Origin: Pseudomonadota bacterium
GTDB lineage: Bacteria; Pseudomonadota; Gammaproteobacteria; Pseudomonadales; Pseudohongiellaceae
DNA: 64,000 nucleotides
Assembly (NCBI GenBank): GCA_027592275.1
Contig: JAQCKF010000003.1
Location: 1 to 64,000 of the forward strand
Direction of reading: 5' to 3'
Below the pieces are notes generated by a model. It was not told the DNA's origin. It saw only the letters and a list, made by a program, of their open reading frames with translations, and searched no databases. Numbering within the stretch: position 1 is the stretch's first letter; each line of letters starts with the position of its first letter. Shown here in pieces: positions 96-57,496 of this stretch. The position numbers were made by a program, and so were the translations under genes.

Positions 96-3008
96 TTAGC
101 GGCCGGGGGTGAAATCGATGGACACGAAGAATTGACGATAAAAGTTATTGATCAATCTAGACTCAAAGCCTCCTATCTGTCCAGTCAACGTAGGCTTGTA
201 ATCTAAGAGATTGTTCACTCCAGCAGACAGGGTAACTGCGCTGTCGAAGAGAAAGAAATCTTCCATGAAATACGAGTAGCGCACATCGATGATAGGATCC
301 TCATCAATTTCACTGGGGGGTACATACTGTCCATCAAATTGATACATGTCAACTATCTGGGCGTCATGATCAATAGCACTGAACCAGCTTACCGACATCG
401 ACGCACTGTGATTGTTTCGGAACCAATTGTTTTGCCACGCCATTTTTATTTTCGGAATTGGGGGGGCGATATTAGTCCGCGCGTTCTGTTTTCCGAGAAC
501 ATCTGTAGGATTACCTTTACTGTCTGTAAAGAGATAATCTGTATAGACCGTGGCATTGAGACGTGTGTTGAAGCTTCCCCAGTTGCCTGGAGTAAAGGAA
601 TAACTCGCTTTCAGGTCAACCAAGCTGACATCAAACTGTGCTACGTTGGCTGACTGAATCAGCACAAGTGCCACACGGCCATCAGGGTCGCGGAAGATAT
701 TCCCGCCGGCACCACCAACAGGCTGACCACCCAGCCAGGCATCGGCGGCCTTTCGAGAGGCTGAGCCGGGAGTAGAGTCATAGGACCCTTCACTCTGGCC
801 AGTTTCCCGAAGCATAGCTGTGAACTGGTTCCGAGTTACGTCATCCTCAGTTAGAGTACGAATTCGGTCAGTATATTCAATTTCCTGATAGTCCATGGAC
901 AACTCAAAGCCTTCAAGCCTGCCCTCTGCCTGCCAAGTGAATCCGACATTAAGAATCGCTGCCTGTTCTGGGCCCAGATTTGGATTGCCCGATGCACATT
1001 TCAGTCCGCCAAGCAGCAGTTGCCCGCTGAAGTCGTCACTGCCGCTGTACATATCGCCGCAGTTTTCGTTGGTAGTGGCCGCTCGGGTCTGGAATGAGGT
1101 CGGTGCCAAGAAGCTTTCGCCCCAAGACGCTCTCAGTGCCAGTCCAGGAATTGGTTCATACCGCGCGGAAATCTTGGGTGTAGTAGTCGACAGACCTTGG
1201 TCAGTAAATTGCTCACTCCGCACCGCAGCCTTGATAGCCAGATTCTCTAAGATAGGAATTTCTATCTCAGCAAACACTGAGCGGACTGCAGAGTTAAATA
1301 CCTCGTCGCCTGCTATAGGCTCGCCATTCACTCCCCAGATGAAATTTTCTCCTATAGCTTCGAATGGCTCTTGAAAAGTGCGCTCTTCCAAGTCACGCCA
1401 TTGAAAGCCAAAGGCCAACTGCACAGCACCGGCCGGAACATCAAATACTTCGCCCGTGAGCATAGTTTCAAAAACATCCAGAGCGTTACGTGAAGTTACA
1501 TGGTTTGGATTTTGGTACTGCATCCAGTTATTTAGTTCTGCGGTGTTTTCGAATCCTGGCTGATAATATGGAGATCGAGGGTCTCTAGAGCCGAAGGGAT
1601 TAAACCACTGATCACCGGAGGGGCCACCTTCCCCGCGAAGAGCTAGCTGCAGGCGGGATGAGTAGACACCTGAGATATCCCTTCTATTTGAGTTTTCTTG
1701 CTTGGTGTAGTAGGTATAACCAGACCAAGTACTGTCGCCGAGGTCATAGTCTGCAGACAGCTTGACGCGATTGACTTGATAGATCCCCGCGAACATGCGA
1801 GACGTGTCATCAGTAATCCAATCAGCGTGGTACTCTGGCAGGGGATGAGTATAAATTCTCCACAGATCAGGGGCCACGTCAAACCCATAAGGGTTGGCAG
1901 GGTGCTCCTCTGGGACCACTAGCATTGATCGGTTATTGGCCGGATTAGGCGAAGAAAATGTGCTTCTGTCTCGGTTAAGACGCGCGTGGTTATTCATCAT
2001 GAAGCCAAAACTCAACCAGTCGGCAGCTTCCCATTGAAGGTTGTTATAAACGTTATATTCTTGTTGGTGCTGAACCACTTCATTCTGTGCGCTGTACTCA
2101 AAAGTACAGAAGTTGCCACTGTTTATGGTTCCAGATGGCAGGGGAGAGGGGCCGTAGCCATGGGTTGGCGAGCCTTCGTTAAACGTTCCGCATGAAGGGT
2201 CTAGCAAGCGGGGACCCACAATGCTAGCTCCGCTCTTTCCTGCTGGTGGAATGGTGCTTAGGTCGTCAGGGACCCCCTCAAGCCGCTTAAATGATCCAGG
2301 GTTTCCGGAACTGGAGGTGCCTCGGGATACATGGTGTTCGCGTCCGCGCTCGTACCACATAAGGGGTGTGCGCTGATAGGTTTCGGCGGATCCGACATAA
2401 CTGAGACCGTTGTCCCATGACTTACCCCATAACGCGGAGACACGCATTTCTTCAAACTTTCCATCTTCAGGCCTCTGATAGAAAGTACGGAATTTGACTC
2501 CGTCGTATTCCTTGATGGGAATCAGGTTGACCACGCCGGCCACCGCATCGGACCCATACAGCGCGGAACCACCGTCCAGCACCATTTCCATCCGTTCCAT
2601 CGCGATGTCTGGGAAGGCGGTATTCAAGCGCGAAGCGATTGTACGTACGCCATCCACGAGAGTCAGAGTGGAGTTTTCACCCAGGCCACGTAGGTTGAAA
2701 CTGGCCCCAGTAGCGGTTTGGCTGCCGTCCTGGCTGCCAAGTACAACGTTGATAATATCAACGTTCTGAACATAGCTCAGATCGCGTATGTATTCCGACA
2801 TATTCGGCGAGCCTGATGCTAGAACGTCGGCACCAGTGACTGTATCTGCCGCTGTATCCTGCGCGAACGCACTATTCCTAATGTAGGAGCCTGTGACGAT
2901 AATTTCTTCAACCTCATCGTCTTGGGCTATTGCCGGCGCTACAAGTGAAGACATGAGGGCCGTGTGAATCAGATATGAAAGCTTCTTACGTCGAAATCTA
3001 TTGGGCAT
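96..3008 (-). CDS. TonB-dependent outer-membrane receptor
   Basis: A 970-residue TonB-dependent receptor for energised uptake of a substrate across the outer membrane. The start has a strong AAGGAGAGAG ribosome-binding site just upstream. A signal peptide ends near APAIAQ (about residue 28), and a TonB-box-like stretch EEIIVTGSYI follows at about 35-44. The plug domain comes next (GLGENSTLTLVDGVR, DGGSALYGSDAVAGVVNLI), then a long beta-barrel ending in an aromatic C-terminus (FFVSIDFTPGR). Length and layout are usual for the large receptors of marine Gammaproteobacteria. No FecA-type N-terminal signalling domain is visible and no sigma/anti-sigma pair is adjacent. The substrate cannot be read from sequence; the SapC/halogenase genes nearby often accompany receptors for glycans or other complex organic molecules. 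Confidence 0.95.
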   Translation of the reverse strand: MPNRFRRKKLSYLIHTALMSSLVAPAIAQDDEVEEIIVTGSYIRNSAFAQDTAADTVTGADVLASGSPNMSEYIRDLSYVQNVDIINVVLGSQDGSQTATGASFNLRGLGENSTLTLVDGVRTIASRLNTAFPDIAMERMEMVLDGGSALYGSDAVAGVVNLIPIKEYDGVKFRTFYQRPEDGKFEEMRVSALWGKSWDNGLSYVGSAETYQRTPLMWYERGREHHVSRGTSSSGNPGSFKRLEGVPDDLSTIPPAGKSGASIVGPRLLDPSCGTFNEGSPTHGYGPSPLPSGTINSGNFCTFEYSAQNEVVQHQQEYNVYNNLQWEAADWLSFGFMMNNHARLNRDRSTFSSPNPANNRSMLVVPEEHPANPYGFDVAPDLWRIYTHPLPEYHADWITDDTSRMFAGIYQVNRVKLSADYDLGDSTWSGYTYYTKQENSNRRDISGVYSSRLQLALRGEGGPSGDQWFNPFGSRDPRSPYYQPGFENTAELNNWMQYQNPNHVTSRNALDVFETMLTGEVFDVPAGAVQLAFGFQWRDLEERTFQEPFEAIGENFIWGVNGEPIAGDEVFNSAVRSVFAEIEIPILENLAIKAAVRSEQFTDQGLSTTTPKISARYEPIPGLALRASWGESFLAPTSFQTRAATTNENCGDMYSGSDDFSGQLLLGGLKCASGNPNLGPEQAAILNVGFTWQAEGRLEGFELSMDYQEIEYTDRIRTLTEDDVTRNQFTAMLRETGQSEGSYDSTPGSASRKAADAWLGGQPVGGAGGNIFRDPDGRVALVLIQSANVAQFDVSLVDLKASYSFTPGNWGSFNTRLNATVYTDYLFTDSKGNPTDVLGKQNARTNIAPPIPKIKMAWQNNWFRNNHSASMSVSWFSAIDHDAQIVDMYQFDGQYVPPSEIDEDPIIDVRYSYFMEDFFLFDSAVTLSAGVNNLLDYKPTLTGQIGGFESRLINNFYRQFFVSIDFTPGR

Positions 3009-3520
3009 TTACTCTCTCCTTGGCTGCATGTTTGAGGCTTATAAACCGGCCTCAAGTGCTGCTCGTAGTATTGGTAAGTACTGTGTGATTAAGTTTCCTT
3101 GCTTCTCCTTGTGGGGTACATGCATTCAGTCGGCTAAACTACCATATTGTTACATAACATCAAAGAGTTTTTAAAGGTATATAACCTTACAGTGTTTAGA
3201 TGCTTACGGCATATCCAAGTATCGAAAGTAGCGCGTATGGCAAGGAATGGGTAATGCCCGCAGGTAAGGATTCTCACGGTGCATGCAGAAATTCAAATCG
3301 ACGAAAAGGGGACCCGGCACAATGCTTCATAAGCGCACATCCCACCGGTTACCAGTTATTCAATCTAGAGCGATACCCAGTATCAACTGACAACTATCTA
3401 TATTTTCGCCGCGTATCTTTGCGACCGGAGAAATATAATGTCGATGTAAAACTGATTTGATACAGCTTTACATCGATTGGAGGGCTGACTTATCAATGCC
3501 GTTTAATGCATCTATTATTT
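3009..3520. other. Intergenic region upstream of the TonB receptor
   Basis: About 510 bp without a convincing gene. It holds the ribosome-binding site and presumably the promoter of the receptor. An AT-rich imperfect dyad (GTTACATAAC) lies near 3150-3160, about 145 bp upstream of the start. A short open frame on the plus strand (3200-3460) has no recognisable domain or ribosome-binding site and is not called. Confidence 0.4.
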
Positions 3521-4450
3521 TCATTGTGTAACAACTACACGCTGGTAAGCGTTGCTCCAACAGCACTGATCTAGACCATCGCTATCAGAGGAATTCCAGT
3601 TGTCCAGCCGCGCTCGAATCATATACTCACCAGGTTCCGAGAAAGTAGCCATAACCCTAGCCGGCCCCTTTCCGGCGGGTATCGCCACTCTGGAAGAAGC
3701 TACAGGTATCATTCCTCGGGTTGTTTGAGCCGAAGCGGTGATGAAAGGCGTAGAAGCATGTTCAGTAAAGCTCACCTGGCCAGGACCCTGGTGCTTGTAC
3801 CATATAACCCGAGTATCGAGTGGCTTGGCAAACAGAGGGTTTGAAGGGTCACGAATAGATGGGTCTTCGGTCTCAACTTCCAATGTAAGCGGAGTGCCGA
3901 CGTCTATCGTTCTAGTATTAATCGCTACGACGCCTTCCGGACCAGATCCACTGCTACCGTTTTCAAACCAGATAAGTGGCTGCACGCTCCCCTGTGGCCG
4001 TGGATTTCTATCAAGCTCATAAGCATTCGAACCGCGCTCCCCAGGCACTTTAAGCTCTTCCAGATTGCCGGTTTTAATGTGCCACCAAACAGATTCATCT
4101 CCCATTGAGGCGGGGATAGTGACGGCAAAGACTCCGGGGTGTCGGCCTGGGAAATAAATTTCCGGCTGCATCCCGTCCAGCTGGGCGGGCTCAATTCGAT
4201 TATTGCCACCCAGTGGGACGATTACATCTTCAGTATTTCTATTGTGGTATCCAAACGAGACAGTGACAGTCCCGTCCTCATTATCATACCAGCCTTCCAT
4301 GAAAGGAATTATAGCAAGACCTCCCGGGGAAGGCGGGCGCAGAGGTCTTGCTGCTTGTTGTGCGTGAGTAGTAGCTACCATTACAATATTTGTGACTACT
4401 ACCAACACTACGCTGGCCACAACTGTTTTAATACGTCTCATTAATATCAA
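3521..4450 (-). CDS. Secreted protein of unknown function
   Basis: A 309-residue protein with an N-terminal signal peptide (hydrophobic VVASVVLVVVTNIVMVATT, cleavage near THAQ at about 31). I recognise no enzyme family. The rest looks like beta-sandwich material with repeated short strands and Pro/Gly turns. It includes PEIYFPGRHPGVFAV and a C-terminal vicinal cysteine pair (DQCCWSNAYQRVVVTQ) that could form a disulfide or bind metal. It lies 50 bp downstream of the cytochrome/copper protein gene on the same strand, so the two are probably one operon. A periplasmic partner role is inference from that position only. Confidence 0.75.
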   Translation of the reverse strand: MILMRRIKTVVASVVLVVVTNIVMVATTHAQQAARPLRPPSPGGLAIIPFMEGWYDNEDGTVTVSFGYHNRNTEDVIVPLGGNNRIEPAQLDGMQPEIYFPGRHPGVFAVTIPASMGDESVWWHIKTGNLEELKVPGERGSNAYELDRNPRPQGSVQPLIWFENGSSGSGPEGVVAINTRTIDVGTPLTLEVETEDPSIRDPSNPLFAKPLDTRVIWYKHQGPGQVSFTEHASTPFITASAQTTRGMIPVASSRVAIPAGKGPARVMATFSEPGEYMIRARLDNWNSSDSDGLDQCCWSNAYQRVVVTQ

Positions 4451-4500
4451 TTTCCAATCTTATTTTTCGATTTTTAGCAGGAGTTGTATAGTGTAATCCA

Positions 4501-5865
4501 CTAATCTCCGGATGGTATTAGGGGTTGTTTATCACTTTCCCGCTTCTGTGCAAGCTCCTGATAAGTCTCATCATCAAGATGGCTTATGGCAATCCAGGAA
4601 TGCGACATCTCATCAGCTGTGCGCTGGCCCCAGCCTACCCATTGCCTGGGGTCAGGGTTGTTCGGATTGCTGGCCGTATTGTCATACCACTGCTTGGTTA
4701 CTAAGACCGCTCCGGTCGGTACGAGTGGCGCAGAATCTTGCTCATAGAGATGGCTGTGATGCCACGTGGCACTCCAGTTGGATATCATACTTACCAATTC
4801 GGTTTTGCCAGTCTCTGGATAGAAAATTTCCAATGAGGCAGCATTCATGCGCAGGTGCCCGTGGGGTTGAAAGCTGTCGATCCGAACCGGGTGATCAAAG
4901 GAGTGGAACCCCTGAGTCATAGCGGTGCCATGAGGTGGGATGAACAGATCACCTTGGTCTAACTGATATGTAGCTAGGTCCTGAGTGATTTTGGCCTGAT
5001 ACCCTTCCGGATGAAGCCATATACCCAGTTCCACTACATTGTCCTCAACCACTGCGTTTGGTGCAGTCCCGCCCAAGCCACCGGGATACATGTGAATATC
5101 CCACTGGACCATACTGTCTTTAAAGGCTGTACGACAAACACCCTCTGGCACGATTTCGCCCCACTTGCCCATGGCATATTCGGTAACCGGCTTTCGATCA
5201 ACACTGCCGTCTTCGTTTACTTCAGCAAAATAGGTGTTGGCATGATGGACCACTGTCTTTGCGTCGCCACGAGGCTTAACTTGAAGAGCCTTGATACAAC
5301 GGTCTTGGGTGATGCCGCTAGAAATAAAGTGCTTATCCCATAAGTCGTTGCCATTGGCAGGCACATCGATCGGGTTGGATGCGAGTACGATATCCGGCTG
5401 GCCTAATTGCTCAGCAAAATTCCAATCGTCGACATCTCGCAATGCCGGTGGGGGGGGTAGTTCTTCAAGATTTCCTAGGGGAGATCCTTGATTAACCCAA
5501 GCTACTACGGTATCGATGTCTTGCTCGGAAAGGCGCCAATCTCCCTGAAGGTTTTGGTTGCCGATATCATGGTCATAGGCATAAGGAGGCATTTCCCGAT
5601 TTGCCACCTTCAATTGAATCAATGGAGCCCAAGGGCGTACTTGTTCATAGCTGCTCAACTCCATGGGTCCAATGCCGCCTTCACGGTGGCAGACCACACA
5701 ATTCTCGTTAATAATACGGGCTACGTGGCCAGCATAAGTCACGGGATCTGCGTCATTCGCCGTGTCTGCAGCAATCGTTGTCTGTGCCTGAAGCCCCAAT
5801 AAAGTGACAACGGCAATGCTTGCTCCAAGATGTGGTAATTCGTTCCATTTCTTCAAAATATTCAT
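4501..5865 (-). CDS. Periplasmic monoheme cytochrome fused to a copper type II monooxygenase-like domain
   Basis: A 454-residue exported protein with a signal peptide of about 33 residues. A cytochrome c domain has one heme site, CVVCHREGG (C56, C59, H60). The C-terminal two thirds carry paired histidines (VVHH, H207-H208), a later DIHM (H258), an HGH pair (QPHGHLRM, H335 and H337) and ADEM (M420). That order matches the CuH site (His-His plus His) and CuM site (His-x-His plus Met) of the PHM/DBM copper type II ascorbate-dependent monooxygenases. The heme would then feed electrons to copper; this is inference. A related triple fusion lies at 55787-57496, and a decayed relative lies just upstream of this gene. 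The substrate is unknown. Confidence 0.8.
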   Translation of the reverse strand: MNILKKWNELPHLGASIAVVTLLGLQAQTTIAADTANDADPVTYAGHVARIINENCVVCHREGGIGPMELSSYEQVRPWAPLIQLKVANREMPPYAYDHDIGNQNLQGDWRLSEQDIDTVVAWVNQGSPLGNLEELPPPPALRDVDDWNFAEQLGQPDIVLASNPIDVPANGNDLWDKHFISSGITQDRCIKALQVKPRGDAKTVVHHANTYFAEVNEDGSVDRKPVTEYAMGKWGEIVPEGVCRTAFKDSMVQWDIHMYPGGLGGTAPNAVVEDNVVELGIWLHPEGYQAKITQDLATYQLDQGDLFIPPHGTAMTQGFHSFDHPVRIDSFQPHGHLRMNAASLEIFYPETGKTELVSMISNWSATWHHSHLYEQDSAPLVPTGAVLVTKQWYDNTASNPNNPDPRQWVGWGQRTADEMSHSWIAISHLDDETYQELAQKRESDKQPLIPSGD

Positions 5866-11023: not shown

Positions 11024-12214
11024 CTAATTGATCTCTCCGTCTGGCCAAGGTGCCCCAGTGTTGTGATCGCTCAGAGCACGCAAACCTTGGAAGACGAATT
11101 TCTGTACGCGTTTACCTTCATAAGTTTCCGTCGTATAGATATTGCCTTTAGAGTCACTGACGATACTGTGGGTGCCGTAGAACAGGCCTGGCTGACGTCC
11201 TCCATCGCCGAATTCAGCGAGCTTCTCAAGTGAATCTCGATCCAGGATGTGAACCTTAAAATTACTGCCATCGGCCACAAAGATGAATTCTTGGTCAGCA
11301 TCTCGTGAAAATGCTATGTCCCAGACTGCACCTGCGCCACGAGTATTGCGCGCAACCTGCGCTTCTTTTACAAAAGTGCCGTCGGGACGAAAAACCTGAA
11401 TTCGATCAGCACCACGGTCGCACACATAGATCAGGCCGTCATTGGAAGGCTCAGCGCAATGCACAGGGCCAACAAATTGCTGCGGCAATGGCTCATCCGG
11501 ATCGTAGAAAATCCCGGCATCGTCCGGTCGGTTACCATAGGCTCCCCAGTAGCGCTTGAACGCGCCAGTGGCGACATCAAGAACAGCGACTCGCTTATTG
11601 CCATAGCCGTCTGCAATGTATGCCTCGTTGGCTGCTGGGTCGATGGCAATTTCGGCAACCTTATTGAAGTGTGTGGTGCTGTTGCTGTCGACGGGCTCTC
11701 CTGGCAGCCCAATCTCACGCACGAAGTCACCTTCCGCAGAAAACACTAGTATGTGCGAATCAGCGCCGCCGTTGCCACCGATCCAAATATTGCCGTTTGG
11801 GGCTATTTCGAGGCCGTGATTAGAGTCCGGCCAAGTATAACCCTGACCAGGACCACCCCACGCGTTAACAACATTGCCTGCTGGGTCAAATTCGATGATT
11901 GGCGGAGCAGCTGTGCAACACTCTGCTACTGCGTTGTCGAGACCAATTTCCTGGGTGGCAAAATTATTGTCCTGGTTCCGATGAACGATGTAGACGTGAT
12001 CCCGAGAATCCACGGCGATGCCGATTGTGGCTCCCAGTATCCACTTGTTGGGCAGGGGTTGTGGCCAGAATGGATCAACCACCATTTGCGGCGCTAAGCG
12101 TTCACTGCTAGCCGCGGAGGCCGGCTCACTAAAGTGCTTCTGGCCCTGTTGAAACGTAGCGAGAAGCACAGCGGCAGCGCCCAAAATTGCGCATATTCTT
12201 ATTGTTTTCGTCAT
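11024..12214 (-). CDS. Secreted NHL-repeat beta-propeller protein
   Basis: A 396-residue exported protein. An N-terminal hydrophobic segment (ICAILGAAAVLLATF) acts as signal peptide or anchor. Six-bladed propeller repeats follow, with recurrent NHL phrases such as GIAVDSRDHVYIVHR, GLEIAPNGNIWIGGNGGADS, VAEIAIDPAANEAYIADGYGNKRV, and SIVSDSKGNIYTTETYEGKRVQKF at the C-terminus. A CC pair lies in VAECCTAAPP. The fold is that of peptidyl-hydroxyglycine lyase-like (PAL-type) proteins, but activity cannot be assigned. It lies 127 bp downstream of the RPDLQG-family gene on the same strand, so the two are probably co-transcribed. Confidence 0.87.
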   Translation of the reverse strand: MTKTIRICAILGAAAVLLATFQQGQKHFSEPASAASSERLAPQMVVDPFWPQPLPNKWILGATIGIAVDSRDHVYIVHRNQDNNFATQEIGLDNAVAECCTAAPPIIEFDPAGNVVNAWGGPGQGYTWPDSNHGLEIAPNGNIWIGGNGGADSHILVFSAEGDFVREIGLPGEPVDSNSTTHFNKVAEIAIDPAANEAYIADGYGNKRVAVLDVATGAFKRYWGAYGNRPDDAGIFYDPDEPLPQQFVGPVHCAEPSNDGLIYVCDRGADRIQVFRPDGTFVKEAQVARNTRGAGAVWDIAFSRDADQEFIFVADGSNFKVHILDRDSLEKLAEFGDGGRQPGLFYGTHSIVSDSKGNIYTTETYEGKRVQKFVFQGLRALSDHNTGAPWPDGEIN

Positions 12215-44333: not shown

Positions 44334-44924
44334 ATGCTACGTAAACTTTTCATAATTAGCGGCCTGCTAATCGCCTCTTCCGCGGCTCTAGCCGATGAAT
44401 GGTTGCGCTCTATTCCAGATTTCGAACTCACTGATCATCTTGGTGCGATACACACGCTAGACACCTATGCAGACAATGAATTTGTTGTGCTCTACGTACA
44501 AGGCGTAGGCTGCCCAATCGCTAGAATCGCGCTGCCAAATTATCGTGAAGTACGTGACGAGTATGCTGACAAAGGCATCGAGTTCGTCATGTTCAACGCG
44601 AACATTCAGGACAACCTGCCGCGCATCGCCAAGGAAGCTGGTGAGTTCGGTATAGACTTTCCGATCATTAAAGATGAAGGCCAGGTCCTCGCGAAGGCAC
44701 TAGGCGTTGAGCGTACTGCTGAAGTATTCATCGTCAACCCACGAACAAAAGAAGTTCTGTATCGCGGCCCAATCAACGATCAACTGGGTTATGAAACACA
44801 ACGCAACAACGCCGACGAGCATTTCCTCAAGGACGCGTTGAACACTGTTCTTGCTGGCGGCACTGTGAATATGGATGACATACCAGACTCGAAGGGTTGC
44901 CTGGTTGCTATCTTCGACACCTAG
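44334..44924 (+). CDS. Exported redoxin (AhpC/TSA-like) protein with a single active-site cysteine
   Basis: A 196-residue periplasmic thioredoxin-fold protein. A signal peptide (IISGLLIASSAALAD, about 7-21) precedes the redoxin domain. The cysteine in VLYVQGVGCPIARIAL (C60) is at the peroxidatic position but is not part of a CXXC. A second Cys lies at the end (SKGCLVAIF, C189) and could resolve a disulfide. The domain aligns over its whole length with the N-terminal module of the triple fusion at 55787, where C60 is replaced by Ser. The stop is followed by a strong terminator. A thiol-peroxidase or thiol-reductase role is likely but unproven. Confidence 0.88.
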   Translation: MLRKLFIISGLLIASSAALADEWLRSIPDFELTDHLGAIHTLDTYADNEFVVLYVQGVGCPIARIALPNYREVRDEYADKGIEFVMFNANIQDNLPRIAKEAGEFGIDFPIIKDEGQVLAKALGVERTAEVFIVNPRTKEVLYRGPINDQLGYETQRNNADEHFLKDALNTVLAGGTVNMDDIPDSKGCLVAIFDT

Positions 44925-55786: not shown

Positions 55787-57496
55787 TTAATTGCCGCCTT
55801 GATCGATGTTTTTCCATTGAACCGCTCCGAAAAACATTTCGTCCCAGCTCTGCTGTCCCCAAGGAACCGTTCTCTCTGGATCAGGGTTCGCAGGATTTTG
55901 TGCGGAATTATCAAACGCACCTACCGCGGTAATCTTCGTGCCCGCTGGCACAAACTTCGGTTCGGCATAGGTGTAGCTCATCTGCCAAGCATAGTTGAAC
56001 TGAGCGATATTGATTAACTCTTCACTTGAGCCATCCGGATAGTCTGCGTAGAAACGCATGTACTTCCCGCGGAAATGCATGTGCGGCAGGTAGCTATGAA
56101 TGTTGGCATCTTTATCAATGGTTATCGTAGCCGTCTGCTCGAAAGCGGGGTCATTTGATGGAATATTCGTCCAGGTGTCAGGAAAAATACAGGCACATCG
56201 ACCTGACATTCTCTCTGTCGGTATCTCACCCTCTGGGTAGAACCACAGTCCTATTTCACTCTCATCGACAGTCTCGCGACCATTGGTTGTGTAGTGAAGA
56301 TTAAGATTTAGCACTGAGCCGTCTTTCAATAGACCGCCAGTATTAGGAGGATTGAATGCCGCCGTGCCGCCCGGGATATAGGCAGTAATACTAGCCTTAT
56401 CAGGATTTCTGCTGCCTAACGCTCCTAGCCGCTGACCGATCTCTTCAGGGAAATTCAGCGCGTTGATCGTATGATGCAACACTGTACGATCACCAGGAAT
56501 GTACTCGCTGCCACGTAGCCAACGGTCTTTACCACCAAGATCAATCGGCACCGCGACATCTCTGTATTCCAAGACGCCGGTAGCCGCAACCTGCTGAGAT
56601 GGCACTTTGAGAATCATGTCGGGAGTATCACTCAGGCTCCACTTAGACGTGGACCAAGTTAATTCTGTAAGAGGATCGGATTCGCCGTCTTTAGGTGCGC
56701 CTGCGTCGGCCCATGCGATAACATTTCTAACCTCTTCATCAGTGATCAATCGATCGTTGATGAACTCACCGATATGACCATCGATCTGACCCGGTGGCAT
56801 GCGCTTAGTCATCAAGACTTCGCGAATCATTGGAGACCAACCCTGAACCATTGTATGGCTGTCCATCGCGAATGGAGCGATGCCGCCCTCGCGGTGACAA
56901 GTCGCACAGTTCTCGGCGAGTATCGGTGCAATATCTGCAGTGTAAGAAGGCACTGCAGTAGCAGCATAGCTAATTACCGGGCCGCTTGTTGCGACCAAGG
57001 CTGCGCTTACGTCCTCACCTGCAAGAATCTCTTGAATGGCTTTCTCTGAAGCAGCGACGCTACCTCGGTACTCAACCATGAAGGAGCGTGGATTATAAAG
57101 AAGTACCTCACCGGCTCGTTCGATGCCGAGCGCTTCGGAGATTACACGGGCATCATCCATCAGGATGGGGATTTGTACGCCGTATTCTAACCATTGGGCT
57201 TGTACAATGCTGCGATTATTTTCTCCCATAGGGTTGATCATCATGAACTCAACGCCTTGGCCGTCGTACTTTGCCTTCAAGGCATCGAACGCCGGCAATG
57301 CATCTGCTGCTGCCTGGCTGTCGTTAGCCTGCACCAGCAAGGCAATCATTTTATGATCGTCGTACCAGCTCATGCTGTGGTGATAGCCATCTTGGTCAAG
57401 GAGTGAAAAATCTCCCACTCTGTCTGCCGCATTGCTGCTGGCGGGAATCAACAGAAGTGCTGCAATTGCCACCTTTACTAGATTGACGTTCTTCAC
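55787..57496 (-). CDS. Redoxin - cytochrome c - copper type II monooxygenase-like triple fusion
   Basis: A 569-residue exported protein with three modules. A signal peptide (about 1-24) is followed by a redoxin domain (about 26-160) like the gene at 44334, but with Ser60 where that protein has its active cysteine. A cytochrome c module follows, with heme site CATCHREGG (C197, C200, H201). The C-terminal module (about 280-560) has the PHM-type ligand order: LHH (H341, H342), NLHYTTNG (H401), PHMHFRG (H472, H474) and WDEM (M553). The set is complete for CuH and CuM. Oxygen-dependent hydroxylation fed through the heme is a reasonable inference; the substrate is unknown. The gene is closed by a strong terminator. 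Confidence 0.87.
   Translation of the reverse strand: MKNVNLVKVAIAALLLIPASSNAADRVGDFSLLDQDGYHHSMSWYDDHKMIALLVQANDSQAAADALPAFDALKAKYDGQGVEFMMINPMGENNRSIVQAQWLEYGVQIPILMDDARVISEALGIERAGEVLLYNPRSFMVEYRGSVAASEKAIQEILAGEDVSAALVATSGPVISYAATAVPSYTADIAPILAENCATCHREGGIAPFAMDSHTMVQGWSPMIREVLMTKRMPPGQIDGHIGEFINDRLITDEEVRNVIAWADAGAPKDGESDPLTELTWSTSKWSLSDTPDMILKVPSQQVAATGVLEYRDVAVPIDLGGKDRWLRGSEYIPGDRTVLHHTINALNFPEEIGQRLGALGSRNPDKASITAYIPGGTAAFNPPNTGGLLKDGSVLNLNLHYTTNGRETVDESEIGLWFYPEGEIPTERMSGRCACIFPDTWTNIPSNDPAFEQTATITIDKDANIHSYLPHMHFRGKYMRFYADYPDGSSEELINIAQFNYAWQMSYTYAEPKFVPAGTKITAVGAFDNSAQNPANPDPERTVPWGQQSWDEMFFGAVQWKNIDQGGN

Follow-up and report, generated by a model that had tools for sequence, protein, structure and literature searches.

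A redoxin-cytochrome c fusion with a PHM/DBM-like copper region in a marine gammaproteobacterial family

PHM and DBM are textbook ascorbate-dependent copper enzymes that are best known from animals, where they serve in the production of amidated peptides and of noradrenaline, and the one-electron steps to their CuH and CuM sites are a debated part of the mechanism. One gene in the stretch of DNA analyzed here (the window, 64,000 nucleotides in length) places a PHM/DBM-like copper region on the same chain as a redoxin and a c-type cytochrome. The locus raises the question of whether a copper monooxygenase may be reduced by a heme of its own.

Domain layout and conserved ligands

The gene occupies positions 55787-57496 of the minus strand, the strand of all features of the fusion given below. 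It begins with a GTG at 57496, and its 569-residue product runs from a redoxin through a cytochrome c to the copper region. The first-pass annotation of this DNA had proposed the same open frame without a strand, and the frame stands. The residues that it listed (S60, C197, C200, H201, H341, H342, H401, H472 and H474) are all found at those positions, except that the methionine is M554, position 553 being a Glu. Conservation was assessed in an alignment of 84 sequences (A1), drawn from 95 rows with fragments and some near duplicates omitted. A1 contains 74 triple fusions (A type), nine redoxin-less cytochrome-copper proteins (B type) and L086, a protein from another family of the phylum. An AlphaFold2 model of the full-length fusion computed from A1 has a pLDDT of 89.9 and a pTM of 0.86.

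The N-terminal leader, KVAIAALLLIPASSNAA (residues 1-24, 57425-57496), resembles a signal peptide by eye, with helices modeled at residues 2-15 and 17-20 and a pLDDT of 66 for residues 1-10 and 57 for residues 11-20. Judging from its sequence, the protein of this marine bacterium is probably exported to the periplasm. The leader is followed by an AhpC/TSA-redoxin domain (residues 25-152, 57041-57424), in which Pfam AhpC-TSA scores 34.7 bits over residues 25-149 (cut-off 26) and the thioredoxin-like fold is recovered by Foldseek. In NCBIfam no model matched the fusion at its cut-off, the best being ResA with 19.2 of 170 bits. The domain is alike in fold and sequence to redoxin/AhpC-TSA-like proteins such as 3u5r (SMc02350), 2cvb and ResA. 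Whereas these proteins carry a catalytic Cys, the fusion has a Ser in its place: Ser60 (57317-57319) falls in the column of the CPF cysteine of 3u5r in an ungapped alignment, as the first-pass annotation had claimed. The fusion has neither the peroxidatic nor the CxxC cysteine of a peroxiredoxin or redoxin, and an active peroxiredoxin was rejected as an assignment because the catalytic Cys is missing.

Among the 74 redoxin-bearing sequences, the column of position 60 holds a Cys in 13 and lacks it in 61. Five redoxin-bearing members come from outside the window's family; the Cys is present in four (L079, L080, L081 and L106) and absent from L107, so that its loss is probably the derived state. 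On the tree, for which the program issued a long-branch warning, the C60 label requires five changes. The copper region contains a CxC pair, C434-A-C436 (56189-56197), which occurs in 57 of the 84 sequences and exclusively in relatives without the redoxin Cys. The two features are mutually exclusive (CxC only, 57; C60 only, 13; neither, 4; both, 0). Because the CxC rows form one clade, this exclusion counts as a single event and is by itself no evidence of compensation. Elsewhere in the window, a stand-alone redoxin with an intact Cys (GCPI) is encoded on the plus strand at 44334-44924 and shares 35-36% identity with the redoxin domain of the fusion. A similar gene was seen on the minus strand at 14 of 56 fetched orthologue loci.

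The cytochrome domain spans approximately residues 185-266 (56699-56944). Its Pfam match to Cytochrome_CBB3 is weak (15.9 bits, cut-off 27), and all cytochrome scores lie below their cut-offs. The assignment comes from the heme attachment motif C197-A-T-C200-H201 (56894-56908) and from M233 of an MPPG motif (56798-56800), the likely sixth heme ligand. C197, C200, H201 and M233 are identical in all 84 sequences, the pattern of a class I monoheme cytochrome c, which upholds the monoheme assignment made earlier. The CxxCH domain is predicted to bind heme.

The C-terminal half (residues 285-569, 55790-56644) is a two-subdomain PHM/DBM-like region, as recognized from the AlphaFold2 model, Foldseek and alignments to PHM. 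The CuH ligands of PHM, H107-H108 and H172, align with H341-H342 (56471-56476) and H401 (56294-56296), and the CuM ligands H242, H244 and M314 align with H472-M-H474 (56075-56083) and M554 (55835-55837); the PHM numbering of all six positions was checked. H341, H342, H401 and M554 are the same in every one of the 84 sequences. H472 and H474 are kept in 82, which is also the count for all six ligands together. The copper region of A1 has 285 columns, nine of them invariant, and four of the nine are claimed ligands. Such near-universal conservation across the alignment indicates that the ligand pattern is not due to chance.

The two sequences that depart from the CuM His pair, L005 and L007, are fusions of the same genome in which RMN replaces HxH; both keep the redoxin Cys. 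Since two of the eight fusions of this genome have lost both CuM histidines, not every member of the family can be a PHM-type oxygenase.

Relation of the copper region to PHM and DBM

The fold of the copper region is that of the copper type II monooxygenases. Foldseek placed PHM (3mll, E 5.3e-11) and human dopamine beta-hydroxylase (DBH; 4zel, E 7.7e-11) at the top, each with prob 1.00 over about 300 aligned columns. The first 29 hits are all PHM or DBH, and the 30th is a redoxin. The rmsd to PHM chains is 4.7-10.8 Å, and the TMt values are 0.48-0.64 for PHM and 0.37-0.39 for DBH. With such a high rmsd and modest TMt, the arrangement of the two subdomains is just roughly PHM-like.

At the sequence level the relationship is distant. 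A search of the fusion against solved structures gave weak redoxin matches and one chance-like match, and the 84-sequence profile found redoxins and, over the heme motif, hydrazine synthase without reaching PHM at E<=1. The fold search and a bridging sequence were needed because of this failure. L086 is the bridge: phmmer aligned it with rat PHM at E 2.5e-7 with the VHH, QVHY, HxH and DEM motifs in register, and A1 places these motifs on H341/H342, H401, H472/H474 and M554. When the copper region was aligned with PHM by HMM, E was 5.8e-8 for a profile that included L086. The same comparison without L086 was weak (Prob 2.4%, E 0.019, a single comparison); the ligands still aligned. Pfam PF03712 (Cu2_monoox_C) matched 40 of the 84 family sequences at E<=0.1, the best at 3.4e-14, and PF01082 matched one of the 84. 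Profile similarity to copper type II monooxygenases, whose absence the first-pass annotation had named as a refuting outcome, is seen in the family; the target by itself has a sub-threshold Cu2_monoox_C score of 12.5 bits (cut-off 23). The earlier proposal of a PHM/DBM-type copper domain with a full ligand set is supported by the Foldseek fold together with the six-ligand register to PHM.

In PHM (the PHM domain of PAM; 1phm, 1opm and 3mll) the two-subdomain fold and the six copper ligands come in the same order as in the fusion. Unlike PHM, the fusion carries a cytochrome and a redoxin, and its residues at the peptide-carboxylate positions are replaced. R240, N316 and Y318, which we take to be the peptide-carboxylate binders of PHM, correspond to L470, F556 and A558. 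Across the 84 sequences an Arg is found in the R240 column in six and a Tyr in the Y318 column in nine, and Asn is not among the six commonest residues of the N316 column. Because these carboxylate residues are absent, the fusion is not PHM itself, membership in PHM proper was rejected, and binding of a peptidylglycine in the PHM manner is unlikely. PHM also has a disulfide set, which is impossible in the target since the chain has just four Cys, two of which are heme-binding. DBH shares the fold of the copper region, and the ligand logic of DBH and tyramine beta-monooxygenase is presumably the same as in the fusion. DBH has a DOMON domain and uses ascorbate, whereas the fusion chain bears a c-type cytochrome. 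According to a PHM study, the PHM coppers lie 11 Å apart and each receives one electron from ascorbate (PMC6123673).

Family expansion and the electron donor

The layout is not unique to this protein, which belongs to a large and apparently undescribed bacterial family. A scan of GTDB genomes gave 56 loci with relatives, all titled MAG and labeled as Gammaproteobacteria, Pseudomonadales, Pseudohongiella, OM182, SAR86 or Proteobacteria bacterium. Within the window's family, 78 of 99 genomes (its own included) and six of eight genera have matches at E<=1e-20; all but two of the 78 genomes contain 8-17 matches each, with up to 14 candidates scored in any one genome. Outside the family the protein is rare: the class draw has matches at E<=1e-20 in three of its 273 other genomes, and the phylum draw at E<=1e-10 in two of 397. 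PF03712 was found in one of 397 other genomes and in none of 14 controls. No plasmid record matched the fusion. The genome studied here encodes eight A-type and nine complete B-type proteins, 17 in total, and a truncated relative (L075). Five related genomes gave 16-35 matches each. Recounted with redoxin-only rows dropped and split rows merged, their copper-domain genes number 13 (plus a fragment) in G351, 14 in G306, 18 in G345, 23 in G315 and 33 in G323. One related genome has two target-like fusions in tandem (L035 8001-9713 and 10022-11719). The first-pass annotation knew of no characterized protein with this layout, and likewise no protein that joins a cytochrome to PHM, with or without a redoxin, was described among the matches listed from the open-access literature. 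Copper enzymes of this class are already known. What seems not to have been described is the proposed wiring to a heme, the fusion with a redoxin and the expansion within the family.

We consider it fairly probable that the fusion is a periplasmic PHM-type hydroxylase that would be reduced by its own heme and not by ascorbate. The C-terminal half would hold two coppers, CuH (H341, H342 and H401) and CuM (H472, H474 and M554). CuM would activate O2 for the hydroxylation of a small organic substrate at one of its C-H bonds. For each turnover the attached His/Met heme, which the periplasmic cytochrome pool may refill, would supply the two electrons that ascorbate provides in the animal enzymes. 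The redoxin domain, its thiol chemistry lost, may now serve as a scaffold or docking domain. The idea of the heme as donor, raised in the first-pass annotation, is helped by the invariant heme Met and by one genome in which the domains are split into neighboring genes. That genome, G306, represents a different genus within the family. Its redoxin-cytochrome gene (287 aa, CVGCH) lies inside an array of four separate copper-domain genes (L168 3367-8967). Each of the four encodes 318-353 aa with HH, HxH and EM motifs, and the one that was scanned (3367-4425) reaches 30.9 for Cu2_monoox_C against a cut-off of 23. This split is the best non-experimental hint that the heme and copper parts work together.

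The alternative that survives best, though we regard it as unlikely, is a copper enzyme for which the cytochrome is not the donor: the heme would be an acceptor, a docking unit or a structural unit, or the copper would use H2O2 or a diffusible reductant. The copper-domain genes of G306 do stand alone, and PQQ alcohol dehydrogenases, which hand electrons to cytochromes, adjoin some redoxin-less paralogues (L072 and L078). In PHM, H2O2 is also reported to bypass one of the steps (PMC6123673). However, the heme ligands are as invariant as most of the copper ligands, the redoxin-cytochrome gene sits inside the array even where the genes are split, and L086, a phylum-level relative with a clearer PHM domain, has a cytochrome as well.

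Quite unlikely in our judgment is a protein that kept the PHM fold and binds copper without catalysis, with a role in storing or sensing copper or in transferring electrons in the periplasm. The two paralogues without CuM histidines are still maintained, the RMN variant takes the same divergent gene position in all five clusters read, and a CxC pair is common in the family. Against this, the full set of six ligands, with the CuM Met among them, persists in 82 of the 84 proteins, whose identity goes as low as about 24%, and the high copy number near oxidoreductases and transporters would better fit catabolic enzymes. RMN fusions are represented by L005, L007, L069 4744-6483 and L144-L147. In the five clusters read (L069 and L144-L147), they oppose an operon of a partner gene and B-type genes, which suggests a specialized non-oxygenase role for these fusions.

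The partner gene belongs mainly to the B-type proteins. In the window, a B-type paralogue with cytochrome c, copper region and all six ligands but no redoxin lies at 4501-5865 on the minus strand, followed on that strand by a partner gene (3521-4450) whose product has two predicted Ig-like domains and no Pfam family. The run at 96-5865 continues downstream with a TonB-dependent receptor (96-3008, by eye). A partner gene of 280-342 aa adjoins the B-type genes at all eight B loci of this genome. Five partner proteins were scanned, those of the window, L067, L069, L072 and L078, and none has a Pfam family; the predicted fold, two Ig-like sandwiches, gave generic Ig-like matches only. Among 30 partner loci (two from this genome, with flanks of about 1.5 kb), a B-type gene is adjacent in 25. 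Three of the five misses, L148, L149 and L150, have none even with longer flanks. A partner gene adjoins one of the eight A-type genes of this genome, an RMN variant, and the arrangement of RMN fusion, partner and one to three B genes recurs in 5/5 such clusters read (L069 and L144-L147). In L075 (4109-5158, minus strand), a cytochrome domain and the C-terminal half of a partner protein form one chain.

PAL-like propellers and possible substrates

The genes around the target fusion give no clue to a substrate. It adjoins genes for a TonB-like protein, an M19 dipeptidase, an inositol phosphatase, a DUF3237 protein and, by eye, an RND-type exporter. In the orthologue neighborhoods from 57 sources, an RND-type gene recurs at least 39 times, the inositol phosphatase at least 36, DUF3237 at least 30 and a LysR gene at least 23. 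These look like plain synteny among close species and are uninformative on function.

Paralogous fusions have other neighbors. The window encodes a PAL-like NHL beta-propeller (11024-12214, minus strand) that matches the PAL half of PAM (3fvz) at E 9e-10, with a generic NHL protein scoring higher. It keeps the residues aligned with PAL R533, H585, Y654 and H690, which we take to be the functional residues of PAL. The His of H690 is one residue off in one alignment, and MAFFT aligns it with a one-residue gap. All 12 distinct close propeller relatives keep the four residues, and seven more distant rows (<=34% identity) are without Y654. In five of six genomes, namely this one (contig C11), G315, G323, G351 and G306, PAL-like genes are 1.0-3.5 kb from fusions; in G345 the nearest fusion or B-type gene is about 60 kb away. 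The five other genomes contain eight strong PAL-like loci (E below 1e-100), five of which have an A- or B-type match no more than 5 kb away. The loci at 1.59 Mb in G345, 6.15 Mb in G323 and 210 kb of C3 in G315 have neither a fusion nor a B-type match over that distance. The clustering was noticed after the fact, and the rough probabilities worked out for three genes of this genome (3e-5 to 2e-4) are post hoc. Genes for CstA and HupE/UreJ are in the same cluster in all three clusters read (L068, L169 and L170), where the propellers lie at L068 10456-11643, L169 7333-8517, and L170 8697-9881 and 10903-12093. The window copy is outside such fusion/CstA clusters. It is the sole PAL-like match on the contig of the target fusion, 43 kb away, and the target has no PAL-like, CstA or partner gene adjacent.

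A PHM-like fold with PAL-like propellers and CstA transporters nearby in several genomes recalls the two-step PAM system, in which PHM and PAL form one chain or an obligate pair. A bacterial PAM that amidates peptides or N-acyl-amino acids in the animal style is nevertheless very unlikely. The target has no PAL domain and no PAL-like neighbor, and the peptide-carboxylate columns of PHM are replaced in it and rarely kept in the family. Compared with PAM, the PAL-like propellers with the four conserved residues are encoded by separate genes, near related fusions and not adjacent to the target, and heme would take the place of ascorbate. An artifact of chance or misassembly, or a pseudogene, which three unrelated domains on one chain might bring to mind, is refuted by dozens of assemblies with the same domain order at 50-94% identity and with ligands intact.

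For the heme-reduced hydroxylase that we favor, the substrate would be other than a glycine-extended peptide bound as in PHM. Its class is a guess from the neighbors of the paralogues. Oxidation next to nitrogen followed by lyase cleavage, an oxidative N-dealkylation of dissolved organic matter, is favored because related fusions adjoin PAL-like lyases and CstA-type transporters, and each paralogue may be tuned to its own substrate. A wider scheme can be offered tentatively, although we rate it as unlikely: this marine gammaproteobacterial family may practice a periplasmic, ascorbate-free, PAM-like chemistry, in which heme-wired hydroxylases (13-33 copper-domain genes per genome) would oxidize many N-containing or other dissolved organics, PAL-like lyases or PQQ dehydrogenases would finish the cleavage and CstA-type carriers would import the oxo-acid fragments.

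If the heme does feed the copper sites of its own chain, these enzymes would exist in a self-wired form that could let spectroscopy follow in time the two one-electron steps to CuH and CuM, and nature supplies ready comparisons in the split genes, the lost CuM site, the CxC pair and the presence or absence of the redoxin. The high copy number suggests that marine bacteria oxidize dissolved organic matter by a route not yet recognized. For SAR202, a published study proposes diversified enzyme families for oxidizing resistant organic matter (PMC6946804). At two loci of B-type paralogues, L078 (89-11019) and L072 (1644-7418), the B-type gene and its partner stand beside the PQQ alcohol dehydrogenases; L078 also has an aldehyde-oxidase-like gene (by eye), and the arrangement resembles an oxidation cascade.
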